The notes below the pieces were generated by a model. The model saw only the letters and a program-made list of their open reading frames with translations, was not told the origin of the DNA and did not search any database. Position numbers and translations under genes: made by a program. Of a DNA stretch of 64,000 nucleotides, positions 3,561 through 60,162 are shown one piece after another; within the stretch, counting starts at the first letter, position 1; the number at the start of each line of letters is the position of its first letter. The stretch lies in the NCBI RefSeq assembly GCF_000471645.3, contig NZ_AWGA01000011.1:1-64000 (forward strand), read 5' to 3'. The DNA is from Candidatus Schmidhempelia bombi str. Bimp. GTDB lineage: Bacteria; Pseudomonadota; Gammaproteobacteria; Enterobacterales; Orbaceae.

Positions 3561-4823
3561 ATGAATCTTACTGAATTAAAAAATAAGCCTGTCTCAGAAT
3601 TAGTCATCTTAGGCGAAAAAACGATGGGGCTGGAAAACTTAGCCCGACTTAGAAAGCAAGATATTATTTTTTCTATTTTAAAGCAGCATGCGAAAAGTGG
3701 AGAAGATATTTTTGGTGATGGAGTATTAGAAATTCTGCAAGACGGATTTGGTTTTTTACGTTCATCTGATAGTTCATATCTTGCAGGTCCAGACGATATT
3801 TATGTTTCACCAAGCCAAATTCGTCGATTTAATCTACGTACTGGTGATACGATTGCTGGAAAAATTAGACCGCCAAAAGAAGGTGAACGTTATTTTGCGC
3901 TTCTTAAAGTCAATGAAGTAAATCATGACAAACCAGAAGATGCACGTAATAAAATTCTATTTGAAAACTTAACCCCATTGCACGCTAATTCACGACTAAG
4001 AATGGAACGGGGTAACGGTTCAACCGAAGATTTAACTGCTCGTGTCTTAGATCTTGCTTCACCGATAGGTAAAGGTCAGCGTGGATTAATTGTCGCGCCA
4101 CCAAAAGCGGGTAAAACGATGCTATTGCAAAATATTGCCCAAAGTATTGCTTTTAACTATCCCGAATGTGAATTAATGGTATTGCTGATTGATGAACGTC
4201 CGGAAGAAGTGACCGAAATGCAACGTTTAGTCAAAGGGGAGGTAATTGCTTCCACATTTGATGAGCCTGCTTCTCGTCATGTTCAGGTCGCTGAAATGGT
4301 TATTGAGAAAGCAAAACGTCTGGTTGAGCATAAAAAAGACGTTATCATACTACTCGATTCCATTACTCGTTTAGCGCGTGCTTATAATACCGTGGTACCA
4401 GCTTCAGGTAAAATTTTAACGGGTGGTGTGGATGCCAATGCATTACATAGACCAAAACGTTTCTTTGGTGCGGCGCGTAATGTCGAAGAAGGGGGAAGCT
4501 TAACTATTATCGCAACGGCGTTAGTGGATACCGGTTCTAAAATGGATGAAGTGATCTATGAAGAATTTAAAGGTACCGGTAATATGGAACTTCAGTTATC
4601 ACGTAAAATTGCTGAGAAACGAGTATTCCCAGCGATTGACTTTAATCGTTCAGGTACGCGTAAAGAAGAGTTAATGACGTCACCTGATGAATTACAAAAA
4701 ATGTGGATTCTACGTAAGATTTTACATCCAATGGGTGAAATTGAAGCGATGGAATTCTTAATTAATAAATTAGCAATGACTAAAACGAATGAAGAATTTT
4801 TCGAAATGATGAAACGGTCTTAG
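3561..4823 (+). CDS. rho: Transcription termination factor Rho
   Basis: The 420-residue hexameric RNA-dependent ATPase is almost exactly the E. coli length (419). The N-terminal RNA-binding cold-shock-like domain (about 50-125) includes the [16 protein letters not shown] segment. The ATPase core has Walker A ([10 protein letters not shown], about 179-188), Walker B ([12 protein letters not shown]), the Q loop, and the R loop around [20 protein letters not shown]. Rho ends transcription of untranslated RNA. The ATG lacks a strong Shine-Dalgarno sequence. Upstream lies a leader of about 290 bases with a strong hairpin, consistent with the autoregulated leader known in E. coli. I could not identify a convincing rhoL peptide. 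A good terminator follows. Confidence 0.97.
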
Positions 4824-4836
4824 TTAAGTTAAATTT

Positions 4837-4863
4837 AAAAATCCGGCTGAGTCCGGATTTTTT
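4837..4863 (+). terminator. Intrinsic terminator of rho
   Basis: A 10 bp stem (A5 TCCGG at 4837-4846, CCGGA T5 at 4853-4862) encloses a 6-base loop and ends in a T run. Confidence 0.85.
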
Positions 4864-5163
4864 ATTTCGGGTATATTTATCAAATACAATAAGCGCTTTA
4901 GTCAATGGGGGTTCGTATAACGATGTTGTTATCACTCAAATGAGCAACATGGCGCCAAGCTAAACGTCTTTTTCATCAACAGGTCATAAAAATTAACTAT
5001 TGTTATAATAATGACATCTAACCATCTGAATTTATTATATTTATTTCTACTTGCTTGATTTTCCACTTTTTTTACATTTGAAGATGTAATATGATGAAAG
5101 CAGTTGTGTATTTTCGCCCAACACTTGAATAGCGCATAATGATTATATTAAGGAGCTTTTTTT
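4864..5163. other. Intergenic region upstream of gnd
   Basis: I see no gene here. A short imperfect hairpin (ATGTTG and CAACAT near 4922-4951) is present. The 3' end carries AGGAG at 5151-5155, the gnd ribosome binding site. The gnd promoter must lie here but I cannot pin it. Confidence 0.4.
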
Positions 5164-6570
5164 ATGTCGAAACAACAAATTGGTGTCATTGGTATGGCGG
5201 TTATGGGGCGCAACTTAGCCCTAAATATTGAAAGTCGTGGTTATACGGTCTCTATTTATAATAGATCAAAAGATAAAACCGATGATGTAATAGCTGAGCA
5301 TCCAGATAAAAAATTAGTTCCTTATTATTCTATTAAAGATTTTGTTGATTCACTTGAAAAACCGCGTCGTGTATTAATCATGGTACAAGCGGGTAAAGGT
5401 ACGGATGCCGTTATTGATGAACTTAAACCACTATTGGATAAAGGCGATATTATTATTGATGGTGGCAATGCTTATTTCCCTGATACTATTCGTCGTAATA
5501 CAGCGTTATCTAATGAAGGTTATAACTTTATTGGTGCTGGGGTCTCAGGTGGTGAAGAGGGGGCGTTAAAAGGACCTTCCATCATGCCTGGAGGGCAAAA
5601 GGAAGCCTATGACTTAGTGGCGCCTATTTTTGAAAAAATTGCCGCCAACGTTGATGGTGAGCCTTGTGTGACTTATATCGGATCAGATGGTGCTGGGCAT
5701 TATGTGAAAATGGTCCATAATGGGATTGAATACGGCGATATGCAACTCATTGCGGAAAGCTATTCGGTATTAAAACATATTGGTGGTTTAAACAATGATG
5801 AATTAGCACAAGTCTTTACTGAATGGAATAAAGGTGAGCTTGATAGTTATTTAATCGAAATTACCGCGGATATTTTCCGTAAAAAAGATCAAGAGACGGG
5901 GGGATACCTTGTCGATGTGATTTTAGATGCTGCGGGTAATAAAGGCACTGGAAAATGGACCAGTCAGAATGCATTAGATCTTGGCGAGCCATTGTCATTA
6001 ATTACAGAATCCGTTTTTGCACGTTATATTTCAGCCATAAAGACACAACGTGTAGCCGCCTCCCATGTTCTAACGGGACCTAAGATTGAGTTTACTGGTG
6101 ATAAAGCTGAATTAATCGAAAAAGTCCGTAAAGCACTTTATATGGGTAAAATTATTTCTTATGCACAAGGATTTGCACAATTAAAATCAGCCTCAGATCA
6201 CTATAATTGGAAATTAAATTACGGTGAAATCGCCAAAATTTTCCGTGCGGGTTGTATTATTCGTGCCCAATTCTTACAGAAAATTATGGATGCTTATGAG
6301 CAAAATGATGAAGTGGTCAATTTACTCTTAACGCCTTATTTCAAACAGACGGTCGAAGCATATCAAGGTTCGTTACGTGATATCGTTACGTTAGCCGTCC
6401 AACATGGTATACCGGTACCAACTTTCTCGGCGGCAATTGCTTATTATGACAGCTATCGTGCTGCGGTGTTGCCAGCAAACCTAATTCAGGCCCAACGTGA
6501 TTATTTTGGCGCACATACTTATCAACGTACCGATAAAGAAGGGGTATTCCATACTGATTGGATGGAATAA
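5164..6570 (+). CDS. gnd: 6-phosphogluconate dehydrogenase (decarboxylating)
   Basis: The enzyme oxidises 6-phosphogluconate to ribulose 5-phosphate with CO2 and NADPH in the pentose phosphate pathway. It has 468 residues, the family length. The N-terminal Rossmann motif is [16 protein letters not shown] (about 7-22). The substrate segment is GVSGGEEGA, the catalytic Lys lies in [17 protein letters not shown], and the C-terminal helical domain includes KGTGKWTSQ. The second position of the nucleotide motif reads GMAVMG, as in NADP-dependent members. It stands alone with AGGAG 8 bp before the ATG and its own terminator at 6611-6663. Confidence 0.96.
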
Positions 6571-53755: not shown

Positions 53756-54193
53756 ATGGAAATTAAATCTGCTATCGGGCAACAATCTCCGTTAATTGAT
53801 GACGCTTTAAATTTACGTCAGCACGTTTTTATTAATGAACAGGGTTTTGACCCTTTGATTGAAGTTGATGAATATGATGATGTGGCTTTGCATATCGTCG
53901 CTTATATTGATAACCAGCCGGTAGGCGTTGCGCGGTTAATTTTTCAAGAGAATAATAAAGCAAAAATAGGGCGGGTTGCCGTGTTAAAGGCCTATCGTGC
54001 CTTAGGGGTTGGTAAACAGTTAATGGAGTATTTAATTAACTACGCTCAAAATCACCATTTATCTGAGCTATGTTTATCTTCACAACTGCATGCTAAGCAT
54101 TTTTATGCAAAGTTGGGTTTTCAAGCTCAAGGTGACGTTTATTTAGAAGAAGAGGCTGAACATATATGGATGGTGTTACCTATTTCTTCATAG
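53756..54193 (+). CDS. GNAT family N-acetyltransferase
   Basis: A 145-residue single GNAT domain. The acetyl-CoA loop motif is visible as RVAVLKAYRALGVGKQLM (about 81-98, R/QxxGxG/A type). The N-terminal LRQHVFINEQGFDP segment and the end FYAKLGFQAQGDVYLEEEAEHIWM match the YjcF/ElaA-like group of GNATs. The substrate is unknown. The open frame reaches back to 53738. The ATG at 53756 has GAGGAA 6 bp before it and is the better start. It stops 16 bp before the truncated repressor of the integrative element. Confidence 0.85.
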   Translation: MEIKSAIGQQSPLIDDALNLRQHVFINEQGFDPLIEVDEYDDVALHIVAYIDNQPVGVARLIFQENNKAKIGRVAVLKAYRALGVGKQLMEYLINYAQNHHLSELCLSSQLHAKHFYAKLGFQAQGDVYLEEEAEHIWMVLPISS

Positions 54194-54208: not shown

Positions 54209-54475
54209 TTGGATATATCTTCCGCAAGTCTTGTTCAACGGTATAAAAGAGATCAGTTTCCATCAGATATTGTTGTGCGTTGTATGGCTGAGACAGGGGC
54301 TACATTAGAATGGCTAGCTAATGGTGACGGTGAATTTTTACCAAGTGAGCCAAAGCAAAAAGAAACTGTTCTAACTGATGAAATAATAGAAAAGTTGGAG
54401 AGACTGGGGAGCCTAAAAGAAAAGGGCTTAATAACCGATCAAGAGTTTAATGAATTAAAAGCAAAGCTGATTTAA
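54209..54475 (+). pseudogene. Truncated phage CI-like repressor fused to a SHOCT domain
   Basis: The open frame starts without a proper start codon (TTG at 54209, no ribosome binding site; a TAA lies in frame at 54197). The first part, LDISSASLVQRYKRDQFPSDIVVRCMAETGATLEWLANGDG, matches the end of the helix-turn-helix domain of CI-type phage repressors. The N-terminal 25 or so residues are missing. After a short linker comes a SHOCT domain (EKLERLGSLKEKGLITDQEFNELKAKLI), a short oligomerisation tail. The break directly after the acetyltransferase gene looks like a deletion or excision junction. It is probably not translated as a working repressor. Confidence 0.7.
54368..54475 (+). repeat. SHOCT-coding repeat, copy 1
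   Basis: About 108 bases coding the linker end and SHOCT tail of the repressor fragment. Copies 2 and 3 share long identical runs with it, for example AAAAGAAAAGGGCTTAATAA. Confidence 0.8.
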
Positions 54476-54720: not shown

Positions 54721-54745
54721 AAATCCAAAATCAAAAAAGAAAAGG

Positions 54746-54850
54746 ATTCTATCTGATGAATGAATAGAAAAGTTGGAGCGACTGGAAATCTTAAAAGAAA
54801 AGGGCTTAATAACCGATCGAGAGTTTAATGAATTAAAGGCGAAGTTGATT
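54746..54850 (+). repeat. SHOCT-coding repeat, copy 2
   Basis: It aligns along its full length with copy 1 (both code EKLER-x5-LKEKGLITD-x-EFNELKAKLI), but has an in-frame TGA at 54761-54763 where copy 1 has ATA. It lies directly before the intact exported-protein gene at 54881. Confidence 0.8.
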
Positions 54851-54880
54851 TATTCACTAATAATTAAAGGAAACAACATC

Positions 54881-55378: not shown

Positions 55379-55897
55379 ATGGAAGGAAAATTAATATTTG
55401 CATATATCAGCGCAAATAAAGAATTTTTAATTCATGTTGTCCATTATATTCGGCAAGATGATAAATATATTCAAGGCATAAATATAATAGATGGTAAAAG
55501 TGGGCAATTTAGAACGTATCGTAAGGATCGAATAATTGCTAAATTTAATACCGAAAGTGAAGCCAAATTATATTCACTTGCCGATAATCTAGATCATGCT
55601 ATTAATGTTTGGGCAACAACTAATCCACGCTTACAAAGTTCATCAACCTCTTTTAATATATTTGATATTCACTTCACAGGCTTTAGACAAGCTGATAAAG
55701 AACGTTTAATCAAATTGGCAGAAGAAAAAGAATTAACTGTCCGCCAAAGCGTAACCTTAAACCTGCAATTACTCTGTGTTGGTTATAACGCAAGCATCAA
55801 AAAAATTGAAAAATCCCAAAAAATGGGAATCAACATCATGAATGAAAGCGACTTCTTAAACTTTTTAGAAACAGGTGAGATATTGTTAGGGGAGTGA
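55379..55897 (+). CDS. WYL-like plus BRCT-like domain protein of the integrative element
   Basis: The 172-residue product appears to join two small domains. Residues about 1-60 (FAYISANKEFLIHVVHYI, GINIIDGKSGQFRTYRKDRI) resemble a WYL domain, a ligand-sensing fold. Residues about 93-170 (IFDIHFTGFRQADKERLIKL, QLLCVGYNASIKKIEKSQKM, ESDFLNFLETGEI) resemble a BRCT domain, with the typical FTGF start, LVxG-like middle and SExxFLxxLExG end. Related WYL-BRCT proteins, as I recall, occur near the integrase and repressor in P2/HP1-like prophages. That context fits here. The start ATG follows GGGGTAAGG. The assignments are from pattern memory. Confidence 0.65.
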   Translation: MEGKLIFAYISANKEFLIHVVHYIRQDDKYIQGINIIDGKSGQFRTYRKDRIIAKFNTESEAKLYSLADNLDHAINVWATTNPRLQSSSTSFNIFDIHFTGFRQADKERLIKLAEEKELTVRQSVTLNLQLLCVGYNASIKKIEKSQKMGINIMNESDFLNFLETGEILLGE

Positions 55898-55944
55898 TTA
55901 AAGAAGTTTTGTCTAATAATCGGTGGAAAATTTAAATAACAGGC

Positions 55945-56011
55945 AAACTTAAAAGAAAAGGGTGCCATAACTGATCAAGTGTTTAATGTATTAAAGGCTA
56001 AATTGATTTGA
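55945..56011 (+). repeat. SHOCT-coding repeat, copy 3 (degenerate)
   Basis: About 67 bases align with copies 1 and 2 (CTTAAAAGAAAAGGG, then ATAACTGATCAAGTGTTTAATG, ending AAATTGATTTGA at the same frame position). It holds several substitutions that alter the SHOCT residues, and no start codon. It lies 25 bases before the nucleotidyltransferase gene. Confidence 0.7.
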
Positions 56012-56036: not shown

Positions 56037-56639
56037 ATGAAGGTTTATTCTGATTGTTTGAAAAATGATATAGATAAATTATCACCTCAAGAAATAGCTG
56101 AAAAAATTTATCTTATTTATAATTCTTATGTTTTTAGGGGGAAAGAAGATCTGCAATATGCCATTTATAAACTTATAAGTGATAAATTCAATATTCCCAT
56201 AACCTCAATTCAGTTATGCGGTTCAGGTAAGACAGGCTATAGTTACTATAAGTCAGAACCATTTGACCCAATAGAGTCTGATCTGGATATAGCTATAATT
56301 AGTTCGAGTTTGTTTAATTTTTATCTGGAAAAATCTTTACTAGACTCAGAAGGACTACAAAATACTTATTTTAAAAAACGTAATAATAAAAAGTCATACA
56401 TGTCTTATTTATCTAAGGGGTGGCTACGACCTGATTTTATGCCAGATATACCTTTGAAGACAGATTGGTTTACTTTTTTTGGCTCTATGTCGAATAATTA
56501 TACCATGCACTTTGCAAAAATAAATGCAGGTATTTTTTTATCTGAAATGATGTTTAATTATCAACAGAAATCAATTGTTGATTTTTATAGAAAAACGAAA
56601 CAGTTTACTTTGGATGCAGATTTAGCAATAAATAATTAG
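56037..56639 (+). CDS. Polymerase-beta-type nucleotidyltransferase, first gene of a two-gene module
   Basis: A 200-residue protein with a nucleotidyltransferase fold signature: the GS element is CGSGKTGYSY (Gly62, Ser63), and after an insert of about 11 residues comes the acidic pair SDLDIAII (Asp82 and Asp84). Further conserved-looking segments are WLRPDFMPD (129-137) and KINAGIFLSEMMF (161-173). No other domain is present, so its target is unknown. Such enzymes may transfer a nucleotide to RNA or protein or make a nucleotide signal. The next gene starts 14 bp after its stop. A G+C-poor composition and the surrounding phage genes point to transferred DNA. The ribosome binding site is weak. 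Confidence 0.75.
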   Translation: MKVYSDCLKNDIDKLSPQEIAEKIYLIYNSYVFRGKEDLQYAIYKLISDKFNIPITSIQLCGSGKTGYSYYKSEPFDPIESDLDIAIISSSLFNFYLEKSLLDSEGLQNTYFKKRNNKKSYMSYLSKGWLRPDFMPDIPLKTDWFTFFGSMSNNYTMHFAKINAGIFLSEMMFNYQQKSIVDFYRKTKQFTLDADLAINN

Positions 56640-56653
56640 TGAATGAGGAAAAT

Positions 56654-57733
56654 ATGAATAGCCTTCAATATAAAGTTAGATCAGTTAGCCTGTTAAATTA
56701 CATAAATGAAGTTATGGCGGATAGATATATTTTAGATGCATATTTTCAAAGAAATTTAGTTTGGCGAGATGTGCATAATAGAGATTTTATTGAAACAATT
56801 CTTTTAGGGTTTCCATTTCCCCAAATTTTCATATCTAAAGGGAAAATTGATGTTGAAAAAATGGCAACAATATCATGCATTGTAGATGGACAGCAAAGAA
56901 CAAATGCCATTTTAAAATTCATTAGAAATGAATTCGCTGTGAAAAATAAATATTTTAATGAATTATCTCCGGACGAAAAAAATGATTTTTTTAAATATGA
57001 AATAGCATTGATAGAGTTAGACCTGGAAAATGATGATCCTAAAGTTAAGGACATTTTTCAACGGATTAATAGAACATCGAATTCATTAACAACTATAGAA
57101 AAATTAGCTTCAGAATATTCTACATCAGAGTTTCTATTAGTTGCCAGATTATTATGTAGTTCAATAGATATAAATAGAAAGTTGATTGACGATGAAGGAG
57201 GGGAATATTCTGATTTTAAAGAGGATCCGAATATACCTGAATCTTTTTATACTTGGGCAAATACAAAAAAAGTAAAAGCGTTTCAACGATTGATTAACAA
57301 TAAAAAGATATATACAGCTATGGACATACAAAGAAAAGTTCATTTGATGCATGTGCTTAATTTAATGTCTACTTATCTATATTCATTTTTTAATCGTAAT
57401 GAAAGAAGTTTTCTAGCATTAGAGGAGCTTAATGTTAACTTTGATAAAAAAGATGAACTTGTTAATAAATTTGAGGAAACAGCAAATATTATATTAAAAA
57501 TAAAACTCGATAATTTTTGGTTTAGAAAAGCAAATATTTTTTCATTGATAATAGCATTAGCAACTACTAATCTTAACGGTATAGTTGTTGAAAAATTGGA
57601 AGAAAATTTAAATAATTTTGCTTTGAAGCCTAATGATGAATATAAATTGGCAGCAACTGAGGCTGTTAATAACAAAAAAGAAAGGTTGCTTAGGCATAAT
57701 GAAATTATAAGATTGATCAATAATTCTAGGTAA
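56654..57733 (+). CDS. DUF262 (DGQQR-type, GmrSD-N-like) protein, second gene of the module
   Basis: The protein has 359 residues from the ATG at 56654, which has GAGG about 6 bp upstream; a GTG at 56639 overlapping the previous stop is the alternative. The N-terminal region carries the DUF262 pattern YFQRNLVWRD, then FIETILLGFPFPQIFI, then VDGQQRT (about 84-90). The DGQQR motif is the ParB/Srx-like NTPase site seen in GmrS, SspE and related proteins. The usual DUF1524 HNH nuclease half is absent: the C-terminal 200 residues are helical with no visible H-N-H. It ends 3 bp before the integrase. It probably works with the nucleotidyltransferase. A defence role is inference. Confidence 0.8.
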   Translation: MNSLQYKVRSVSLLNYINEVMADRYILDAYFQRNLVWRDVHNRDFIETILLGFPFPQIFISKGKIDVEKMATISCIVDGQQRTNAILKFIRNEFAVKNKYFNELSPDEKNDFFKYEIALIELDLENDDPKVKDIFQRINRTSNSLTTIEKLASEYSTSEFLLVARLLCSSIDINRKLIDDEGGEYSDFKEDPNIPESFYTWANTKKVKAFQRLINNKKIYTAMDIQRKVHLMHVLNLMSTYLYSFFNRNERSFLALEELNVNFDKKDELVNKFEETANIILKIKLDNFWFRKANIFSLIIALATTNLNGIVVEKLEENLNNFALKPNDEYKLAATEAVNNKKERLLRHNEIIRLINNSR

Positions 57734-57736
57734 ATT

Positions 57737-58732
57737 ATGTCTATTCGTAAGAATGGTAATAAATGGTTATTTGAAAAATACCTTGAAGGTGGTAGACGTA
57801 TTCGTAAGACGTTTGCCACCAAAGGCGAAGCGTTAGCTTACGAAAATTATTTAGAAGAGCAAACTAACCAAAAGCCTTGGTTGGGTGAAAAGATAGATCG
57901 CAGACGTTTATCAGATTTGATTAATACTTGGTATTCATTACACGGGCAAACGCTTAAAGACGGTGAAAAACGCCTAAAAGCCATGTTATTTGCTGATGAT
58001 TGTATAGGTCATCCACTTGCTACCGATTTCACGGCCAAACAGTTTACTAATTATCGTCAAAAGCGTATTGATGGTGAAATATTTAGAACAGATCGAATTA
58101 AAAATGTTGCCCCTCGAACCATGAACCTTGAGTTAACTTATTTTAAAGCAATGTTTAATGAGTTGATTAGGTTAGGGGAGTGGCAACATAACAATCCACT
58201 TGAACGAATACGTCCATTTAAAACCGATGAGCAAGAAATGGCTTATCTAACAAAAGAACAAATTAATGACTTACTCCTATCATGTGAGCAAAGTACGGCT
58301 AAAGACTTAGTTATTATCGTTAAAATCTGTTTAGCAACAGGAGCAAGGTGGAGCGAAGCCGAAAGCCTAAAAGGCACACAAGTTAAAGATGGGAAAATCA
58401 CCTATATCAACACAAAAGGTAAACGCAATCGAACCATTCCAATTAGCGACAAACTCTTTAACGAAATTCCCAAAAAGAATGGTAACCTATTTACACCATG
58501 TTATTCAGCGTTCCGCTCAGCAATCGATCGTGCAGCAATAGAACTACCCGAACGACAATTAACCCACGTATTACGCCATACCTTCGCCAGCCATTTTATG
58601 ATGAATGGTGGTAACATTTTAGTTTTACAAAAAATACTCGGCCACACAGATATCAAAATGACCATGCGATATGCACACTTTGCGCCTGATCACTTTGAAG
58701 ATGCGGTAAGGTTGAATCCGTTGAACAATTAA
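57737..58732 (+). CDS. int: P2/HP1-type tyrosine integrase
   Basis: A 331-residue tyrosine recombinase. The N-terminal arm-binding part is MSIRKNGNKWLFEKYLEGGR. The catalytic residues are visible: Arg204 (TGARWSE), His277 and Arg280 (HVLRHTFASHF), His303 (LGHT), and Tyr312 (MRYAHFAP). The sequence resembles P2 and HP1 integrases along its whole length, including the end DAVRLNPL. All active-site residues are intact, so it may be functional. In P2-like phages int lies next to the immunity repressor and attP follows int. Here the repressor is at 54209, so an att site is expected in 58733-59109. It begins 3 bp after the DUF262 gene. Confidence 0.93.
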   Translation: MSIRKNGNKWLFEKYLEGGRRIRKTFATKGEALAYENYLEEQTNQKPWLGEKIDRRRLSDLINTWYSLHGQTLKDGEKRLKAMLFADDCIGHPLATDFTAKQFTNYRQKRIDGEIFRTDRIKNVAPRTMNLELTYFKAMFNELIRLGEWQHNNPLERIRPFKTDEQEMAYLTKEQINDLLLSCEQSTAKDLVIIVKICLATGARWSEAESLKGTQVKDGKITYINTKGKRNRTIPISDKLFNEIPKKNGNLFTPCYSAFRSAIDRAAIELPERQLTHVLRHTFASHFMMNGGNILVLQKILGHTDIKMTMRYAHFAPDHFEDAVRLNPLNN

Positions 58733-59109: not shown

Positions 59110-60162
59110 TTAATCTTGCTCTTTAATCCAAGCATTAATTAATTTATAAGATAAAGCTAGCACAACAGGCCCTATAAATAATCCCATAATGCCAAATGCT
59201 AATATTCCGCCAATGACACCACAGAGAATGAGTAAAAATGGTAAATCAGCCCCTTTTTTAATTAAAGCGGCACGCATAAAACTATCAATAGTCGTTAAAG
59301 CAATGGTAACAATAATTAAAAATGCACCTGACCACATATTCTCACAATAAAATTGCCAAATAATTGAGGGAACCATAATCAGTAGCGGCCCAATCTGAAC
59401 GACACAGCAGAGAAACATTAATAATGTGAGTAAACTGGTATAGGGGACATTAGTTAAAGCTAAACTCATACCGCCAATTAAAGCCTGAGTTAATGCAGTA
59501 ATAACGACACCTAAAGCAACAGCACGGATGGCTTGTCCCGCAAGTTTTATGGAATAGATCCCATGTTGTGGAGATACTCTTGCCGCAAAAACAAATAAAT
59601 ATTTTGTGACCTGTTCGCCGTAATAAAAGAGTAATCCACTGAAAATAATCATTACACCGAAATGGAAAATAAGAATACTAAAGTTGGCTAATTGGGTAAT
59701 ACCCCATGAAATGATAGTACCTATGTAAGGTTGTATTTCATTAATGATATCCAAACTCTCATCATTCACGATGGATATCCATTTTTGGTGCACTTGTTGA
59801 CCAATAGCTGGGATAGAATTTAACCAGTTTAGCTCAGGTAAATGGTGTGGTGAAAGATTCTTAGTCCACTCAATTAAATAAGCACTGTTTTTAGTAATAC
59901 TATAAATAATAATAGTAAATGGAATGACTAATACTAAGGCAAGTAATAACGTCATAATGATCACAGCAGGAAAACGGCCTAGAGAAAATTTTTGTTGTAT
60001 TTTAAGCATTAGTGACCAAGTGGCAATAACGACCATGACTGCCCAGAAAATACCAAATAGAAAAGGCTCAATAATATTGAGTGTAACAATAATTAACATT
60101 CCGATAACTAGAATATTAAAAATTAATTTAAGGAGATCGTAGGTTTGTTTATCTTGTGACAT
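59110..60162 (-). CDS. ydiK: AI-2E family membrane protein YdiK
   Basis: The 350-residue inner membrane protein has about seven or eight membrane segments. It matches E. coli YdiK in EPFLFGIFWAVMVVIATWSLM, LPELNWLNSIPAIG, QAIRAVALGVVITALTQALIGG and the end LILCGVIGGILAFGIMGLFIGPVVL. The AI-2 exporter/PerM superfamily includes Na+/H+ and quorum-signal transporters; the substrate of YdiK is not established. The gene is single, on the minus strand. Confidence 0.9.
   Translation of the reverse strand: MSQDKQTYDLLKLIFNILVIGMLIIVTLNIIEPFLFGIFWAVMVVIATWSLMLKIQQKFSLGRFPAVIIMTLLLALVLVIPFTIIIYSITKNSAYLIEWTKNLSPHHLPELNWLNSIPAIGQQVHQKWISIVNDESLDIINEIQPYIGTIISWGITQLANFSILIFHFGVMIIFSGLLFYYGEQVTKYLFVFAARVSPQHGIYSIKLAGQAIRAVALGVVITALTQALIGGMSLALTNVPYTSLLTLLMFLCCVVQIGPLLIMVPSIIWQFYCENMWSGAFLIIVTIALTTIDSFMRAALIKKGADLPFLLILCGVIGGILAFGIMGLFIGPVVLALSYKLINAWIKEQD

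Follow-up and report, generated by a model that had tools for sequence, protein, structure and literature searches.

DUF262 proteins form one half of several bacterial defence systems. In GmrSD, BrxU and SspE, DUF262 is an NTPase through which a nuclease is coupled to the recognition of modified DNA (PMC10952713), and in GmrSD and BrxU this nuclease is of the DUF1524/HNH type. In a survey of the 20 commonest GmrSD-type clusters of enterobacteria, all were either single genes or two-gene types of the form GmrS/GmrSD (PMC12373910). PD-T4-2 of E. coli consists of a DUF262 protein and a HEPN partner (PMC10952713). SspE, Menshen, Dazbog and PtuXYZ likewise combine DUF262 with a defence partner, none of which is described there as a nucleotidyltransferase (PMC10952713, PMC11980606). 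DUF262-type endonuclease annotations also occur in type II restriction-modification (R-M) loci with a C5-cytosine methyltransferase (C5-MTase). A small nucleotidyltransferase (NTase) with the motif GS...DxD is encoded first in the two-gene operon of the MNT-HEPN (MntA-HepT) dyads (PMC3710099), for which nucleotidylation of the partner by the antitoxin has been proposed.

The pair of genes described here combines a minimal NTase with a DUF262 protein and probably constitutes a two-gene immune system of bacteria not described before. It was found in a stretch of 64,000 nucleotides, hereafter called the window, directly upstream of a P2-type integrase gene (Table 1).

Table 1 Features of the gene pair and its surroundings in the window
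Feature	Position	Strand	Description
5'-truncated phage CI-type repressor with SHOCT tail	54209..54475	+	Left end of the remnant; Pfam Phage_CI_repr 6.4e-12
BRCT-domain ORF	55379..55897	+	Neighbouring cargo; phrog_2561 'DNA ligase' 1.5e-37, BRCT 2.5e-4
NTase (predicted minimal pol-beta-type nucleotidyltransferase)	56037..56639	+	200 aa; GS 62-63, DLD 82-84; ORF
DUF262/GmrS-like (GmrSD_N, ParB/Srx-fold) protein	56654..57733	+	359 aa; DGQQR; without HNH/DUF1524; Pfam, AF2, Foldseek
P2-type tyrosine integrase	57737..58732	+	Pfam Int_N 7.8e-36, Phage_integrase; vehicle of the host element, outside the system

Results

Sequence analysis of the predicted nucleotidyltransferase

The first ORF of the pair contains the motifs CGSGKTGYSY and SDLDIA and the second contains VDGQQRT. 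The DUF262 ATG at 56654 is preceded by GAGG and is separated from the NTase stop at 56639 by exactly 14 bp; an alternative GTG start at 56639 overlaps the NTase stop. The original prediction, made from the letters of the window and a list of its ORFs, had given the extent of the pair (56037-57733), these motifs and the spacing, and the numbering of Asp82 and Asp84 in the NTase, all of them correctly. Its statement that the pair contains no HNH also held, as a Pfam search of the two proteins found neither HNH nor DUF1524.

The window NTase has no Pfam family of its own. Relatives were drawn from genomes, viral contigs and one plasmid, and of these 82 sequences Pfam NTP_transf_2 matched 24 at E ≤ 0.1 (best 3.5e-4), Polbeta 8 and GlnE 2. 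In a profile comparison with hhalign, the GS/DxD core was aligned with that of minimal NTases from an independent set (probability 82, E 1e-5). Residues G62, S63, G67, D82 and D84 are invariant in all 81 aligned NTases. In the AF2 model (pLDDT 92) the GS follows one strand and the DxD lies on another. D133, present in 75 of the 81 sequences, was the best candidate for a third catalytic carboxylate, but was rejected as an essential residue since it is absent in six, close relatives among them; a third carboxylate conserved throughout the 81 was not found. At 200 aa the protein is longer than the NTases of the MNT-HEPN dyads and has extra helices and a conserved G-x-x-R-P-D-x-x-P stretch.

A Foldseek search of the PDB with the NTase model gave no significant match, the top one being cGAS at E 1.4, followed by CD-NTases (CdnE). 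No significant match was found among viral models either, and a sequence search of the PDB returned just one unconvincing designed protein. The PDB fold matches had E ≥ 1.4, and no fold assignment is claimed from these searches. While no fold match reached significance, the Pfam matches of the relatives and the profile comparison agree with the original prediction of a nucleotidyltransferase, and support assignment of the first protein to the pol-beta nucleotidyltransferase superfamily, with catalysis predicted.

The rank of cGAS and the CD-NTases, non-significant as it is, would suit a CBASS-like module, in which infection would lead the NTase to synthesise a nucleotide messenger, with DUF262 or an unlinked protein as the receptor or effector. 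Against this, no SAVED, CARF, TIR or membrane effector recurs among the neighbours, the NTase is shorter than CD-NTases, and DUF262 is akin to sensors of DNA modification and not to known nucleotide receptors. The window NTase had no PADLOC match, and the combination of a CD-NTase with a Cap protein that marks CBASS was not found, no effector gene being a recurrent neighbour. Such signalling is regarded as quite unlikely. The original prediction had named the NTase as either effector or signal maker; the effector is favoured, and the signal maker is the weaker choice because no receptor or effector gene recurs beside the pair.

Sequence and structure analysis of the DUF262 protein

The second protein matched Pfam GmrSD_N (PF03235) at 1.6e-18, with 68 bits against a gathering cut-off of 33.2. 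Four residues of DGQQR (D, G, the second Q and R) do not vary in any of 77 DUF262 relatives. Its AF2 model (pLDDT 90.9) matched BrxU in Foldseek (7p9k, E 1.3e-3, probability 1.00), then Noc/ParB CTPases, KorB, SspE and sulfiredoxin, which gives the protein a ParB/Srx-like fold, and a profile search of PDB sequences also found BrxU (9.5e-5). No nuclease domain was found in it with Pfam. From its family (PMC10952713) we infer that the protein would bind and hydrolyse NTP.

The pair thus resembles GmrSD and BrxU in its DUF262 (GmrS) half with DGQQR, a half which in those systems has a defence role, but differs from them in having an NTase as the partner and no fused or adjoining DUF1524/HNH. It shares with PD-T4-2 the two genes, the DUF262 and the lack of DUF1524, but the partner there is a HEPN protein. 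The PADLOC (2023) models which matched the DUF262 protein were NsnA, PD-T4-2_A and REase_II; the match of PD-T4-2_A to the window protein was weak (8e-7) and confined to the DUF262 core. No PADLOC (2023) model confidently matched the NTases tested. None of the PADLOC matches of the proteins from the window and from loci L024, L081 and L013 was named Menshen or Dazbog, for which PADLOC 2.0.0 may hold no models.

In sister clades of DUF262 among the loci collected the partners are HEPN_MAE_28990 (L146), a PLD/NgoFVII-like protein (L132) and an AAA protein (L137), and with partners so exchanged DUF262 looks like a sensor with a swappable partner. A DUF262 gene in an e14-like prophage of E. coli beside icd (L094) was set aside, as its partner is different, a 220-aa protein without a Pfam match which is not an NTase; this other pair (3989-5700) is possibly PD-T4-2-like.

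Conservation of the gene pair

The NTase profile was used to scan 84,980 species, each represented by a single genome, and the best 80 of 150 loci were analysed. In all 80 of these, DUF262 or its remains was found directly downstream of the NTase; the partner was in no case the HEPN protein of the MNT-HEPN dyads. The DUF262 ORF was intact in 75 of the same 80 loci, including one in which it is fused to the NTase (L025), decayed in four (L030, L042, L047 and L071) and cut by the contig end in L018. The fusion carries little weight, since it has R at the position of G62 and T in DGQQR. The pair was adjoining in every complete locus found. The tree of NTases includes Pseudomonadota, Bacteroidota, Cyanobacteriota, Bacillota, Acidobacteriota, Planctomycetota, Chloroflexota, Ignavibacteriota and Cloacimonadota, and one more locus (L047) is recorded as Leptotrichia; the loci cover at least nine phyla. 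The distance matrices of the NTase and DUF262 proteins were correlated with r = 0.915 over 76 pairs, and 2000 shuffles reached at most 0.18.

As the scan of the 80 loci was led by the NTase, both profiles were also run on an unbiased set of 398 genomes from the phylum. The three genomes with an NTase were exactly those with the three best DUF262 matches (7e-132, 6e-92 and 1e-89), and the genes were adjoining in each; the next-best DUF262 (6e-50) and the others inspected had different neighbours. Since both profiles pointed to the same three genomes, the association of NTase and DUF262 is specific in both directions. Adjacency in varied genomes, the check proposed with the original prediction, was thus seen both across phyla and in the smaller sample, and no housekeeping pair matches NTase plus DUF262. 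On this comparative evidence the two genes form a single heritable unit in all these phyla.

No NTase homologues were found among deposited phage records, and the pair was found on one plasmid only. The NTases of the Aliarcobacter plasmid L093 and of L011 and L012 were excluded, being members of a second subfamily with no adjoining DUF262 seen. This subfamily has about 220-230 aa and the motif GSARIGTSLSP...KSDLDFFVV (L093 7932-8591, L011 1390-2070, L012 1456-2139), and in L093 its gene precedes that of a DUF4365 protein.

Decay of the pair was one-sided. An open NTase stood beside a broken DUF262 in L030, L047 and L071 (the NTase of L047 may lack its N-terminus) and the reverse was seen in none, which speaks against an NTase that is toxic at all times and held in check by DUF262. 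The pattern is compatible both with an NTase which needs DUF262 and with an NTase which is an antitoxin. In the latter case, the pair would be a toxin-antitoxin-like module, in which a DUF262 protein harmful as a DNA nickase or by depleting NTP would be nucleotidylated by the NTase and released upon infection. The NTase gene comes first, like MNT in the MNT-HEPN dyads (PMC3710099), ParB/Srx proteins are able to nick DNA according to work cited in PMC12839542, and the decay in the three loci would be expected if DUF262 were the costly partner. The characterised systems, however, use DUF262 as a sensor or NTPase and not as a toxin alone (PMC10952713), the methyltransferase linkage and endonuclease-domain fusion described below fit a DNA sensor, and an NTase effector dependent on DUF262 explains the decay equally well. 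A toxin-antitoxin role is considered unlikely.

Methyltransferase and restriction genes beside the pair

In the genome loci, the commonest Pfam family among the 146 nearest neighbours was C5-cytosine methyltransferase (8), followed by Uma2 (6). A C5-MTase gene lies immediately upstream and in the same orientation in L007 and L008, which are viral contigs, and in L081, L084 and L090. It follows the frameshifted DUF262 in L047, and is on the opposite strand in L032, L045, L068 and L078. About 90 % of the genome loci have no adjoining C5-MTase, and neither has the window or the E. coli P2 copy described below. The L090 operon ends with an MvaI/BcnI restriction endonuclease (REase) gene (5.6e-79), which is also present in L092, and L007 ends with an SRA-HNH protein. 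DUF1524/HNH was not a conserved neighbour among the 146, HNH proteins occurring in single loci only (L007, L020 and L049).

In L081 and L084 the C-terminus of DUF262 is fused to an REase N-terminal-type domain related to the L090 REase ORF (6e-20 and 8.5e-23, respectively). A separate REase gene is absent from L081 and reduced to a 91-aa remnant in L084. The fusion suggests DNA targeting, and together with the linkage to C5-MTase it argues that DUF262 reads DNA.

Some of these loci, with C5-MTase upstream and MvaI/BcnI REase downstream (L090), resemble type II R-M systems in which the REase is annotated as DUF262-type, and the PADLOC REase_II model PDLC03418 matched the window DUF262 protein; most copies, including that of the window, nevertheless lack both the MTase and the REase. 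The NTase and DUF262 might be accessory to R-M, assisting a C5-MTase and a separate REase, with the stand-alone pairs as left-overs. The frequency of C5-MTase among the 146 neighbours would fit such a role, as would the REase genes of L090 and L092, the SRA-HNH protein of L007 and the MTase linkage, which changed at least five times on the NTase tree. It is nevertheless quite unlikely, considering that the pair is strictly conserved and the R-M parts are variable, and that some nine tenths of the genome loci, the E. coli hotspot copy and the window are without C5-MTase.

The C5-MTases of L084 (3797-6007) and L090 (3791-5998) have an N-terminal integrase-type arm DNA-binding domain (Arm-DNA-bind_5, 4.6e-5 in L084). 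In L086 from Flavisolibacter an HhH-GPD base-excision glycosylase gene (5276-5935) lies directly upstream of the NTase, and helicase and ATPase-like genes lie downstream.

Host elements in the window and in E. coli

The integrase downstream of the pair is P2-type, as originally predicted, with the Pfam domains given in Table 1 and a relative in a Peduoviridae Vibrio phage (1.7e-91) which was the closest among the loci collected. The host element had been described as P2-like, which is correct for the integrase, but what is present in the window is a decayed prophage remnant of about 4.5 kb with no structural genes. It consists of a truncated repressor, a truncated BRCT-domain ORF, the pair and the integrase, and no capsid, tail or replication genes were found between the GNAT gene, which ends at 54193, and the AI-2E-type transporter gene, which starts at 59110. 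In a genome of the same genus the GNAT and transporter genes are about 0.1 kb apart and the element is absent, which identifies the interval in the window as an insertion.

The window repressor lacks its N-terminus, the Phage_CI_repr match covering positions 23-63 of the 65 of the profile. A 31.6-kb IMG/VR prophage contig (L005) contains the same pair with 92 and 91 % identity, and a full-length repressor. The BRCT ORF upstream of the pair is also found in L005, where its counterpart makes up the C-terminal portion of a longer protein (424 aa) whose N-terminus is hydrophobic, and not in the other loci; the BRCT-domain ORF is thus probably not part of the pair. A direct repeat of 118 nt is found in the window at 54357-54474, 54735-54852 and 55893-56010, the second and third copies having 86 and 60 % identity to the first. 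It corresponds to the 3'-terminal, SHOCT-coding part of the phage repressor gene and precedes successive cargo segments, and may mark how cargo gets inserted behind the repressor.

One of 5,426 complete E. coli genomes, that of strain 1500, has the pair (WP_089583882.1 and WP_089583868.1) in a P2 prophage between gpA (replication endonuclease) and gpQ (portal). This is the tin/old position, an anti-phage hotspot in P2 (PMC9122126). Prophages with a left flank more than 99 % identical have there a SIR2 protein, an ATPase and a second gene, or nothing. The original argument for anti-phage function from the cargo site between repressor and integrase is strengthened by this copy. In the Vibrio Peduoviridae phage L9-1 (L095, 1368-6686) four genes are found between int and the repressor, encoding a C5-methyltransferase, a 646-aa DUF262-type protein, an AAA-type ATPase-like protein and a fourth product.

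Discussion

The prediction that NTase and DUF262 form a two-gene defence-type module survived the computational tests that had been proposed for its refutation, its function being predicted from sequence. The pair is very probably an anti-phage system of some kind. The NTase is read as the effector because of its position as the partner of DUF262, and the chances that it is an effector licensed by DUF262 are considered about even.

In this effector model, DUF262 would sense invading DNA, either by its modification state or, where a C5-MTase accompanies the pair, by a missing host mark. Binding and hydrolysis of NTP by DUF262 would switch on the partner NTase, which would nucleotidylate a cellular target, the likeliest classes being tRNA 3' ends or protein, and thereby stop phage production or the infected cell. 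The NTase would take the place of HNH/DUF1524 in GmrSD and of HEPN in PD-T4-2-like pairs. The complete scheme, in which phage DNA is read by a GmrS-like sensor, with a host C5-methyl mark as the reference in some lineages as in an R-M system with a nucleotide-transferring 'restriction' half, and a minimal NTase then disables tRNA or protein, is put forward only tentatively.

Defence by DUF262 itself is already known, and the pair would be a new form of DUF262-centred defence. It had been thought uncharacterised, and neither PADLOC (2023) nor the open literature searched yielded a system of NTase plus DUF262. The main text on DefensePredictor does not mention the pair either, but an earlier listing as a candidate, in a supplementary table or a subscription paper, is possible.

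DUF262 has so far been known as the NTPase or sensor half of nuclease systems. If the proposal is true, its pairing with an NTase across phyla would mean that the same DUF262 sensor can drive an effector which is not a nuclease. The pairing would also explain an orphan NTase family without a clear Pfam or PADLOC assignment, and the copy in the E. coli P2 prophage makes the pair directly testable in laboratory strains of E. coli.
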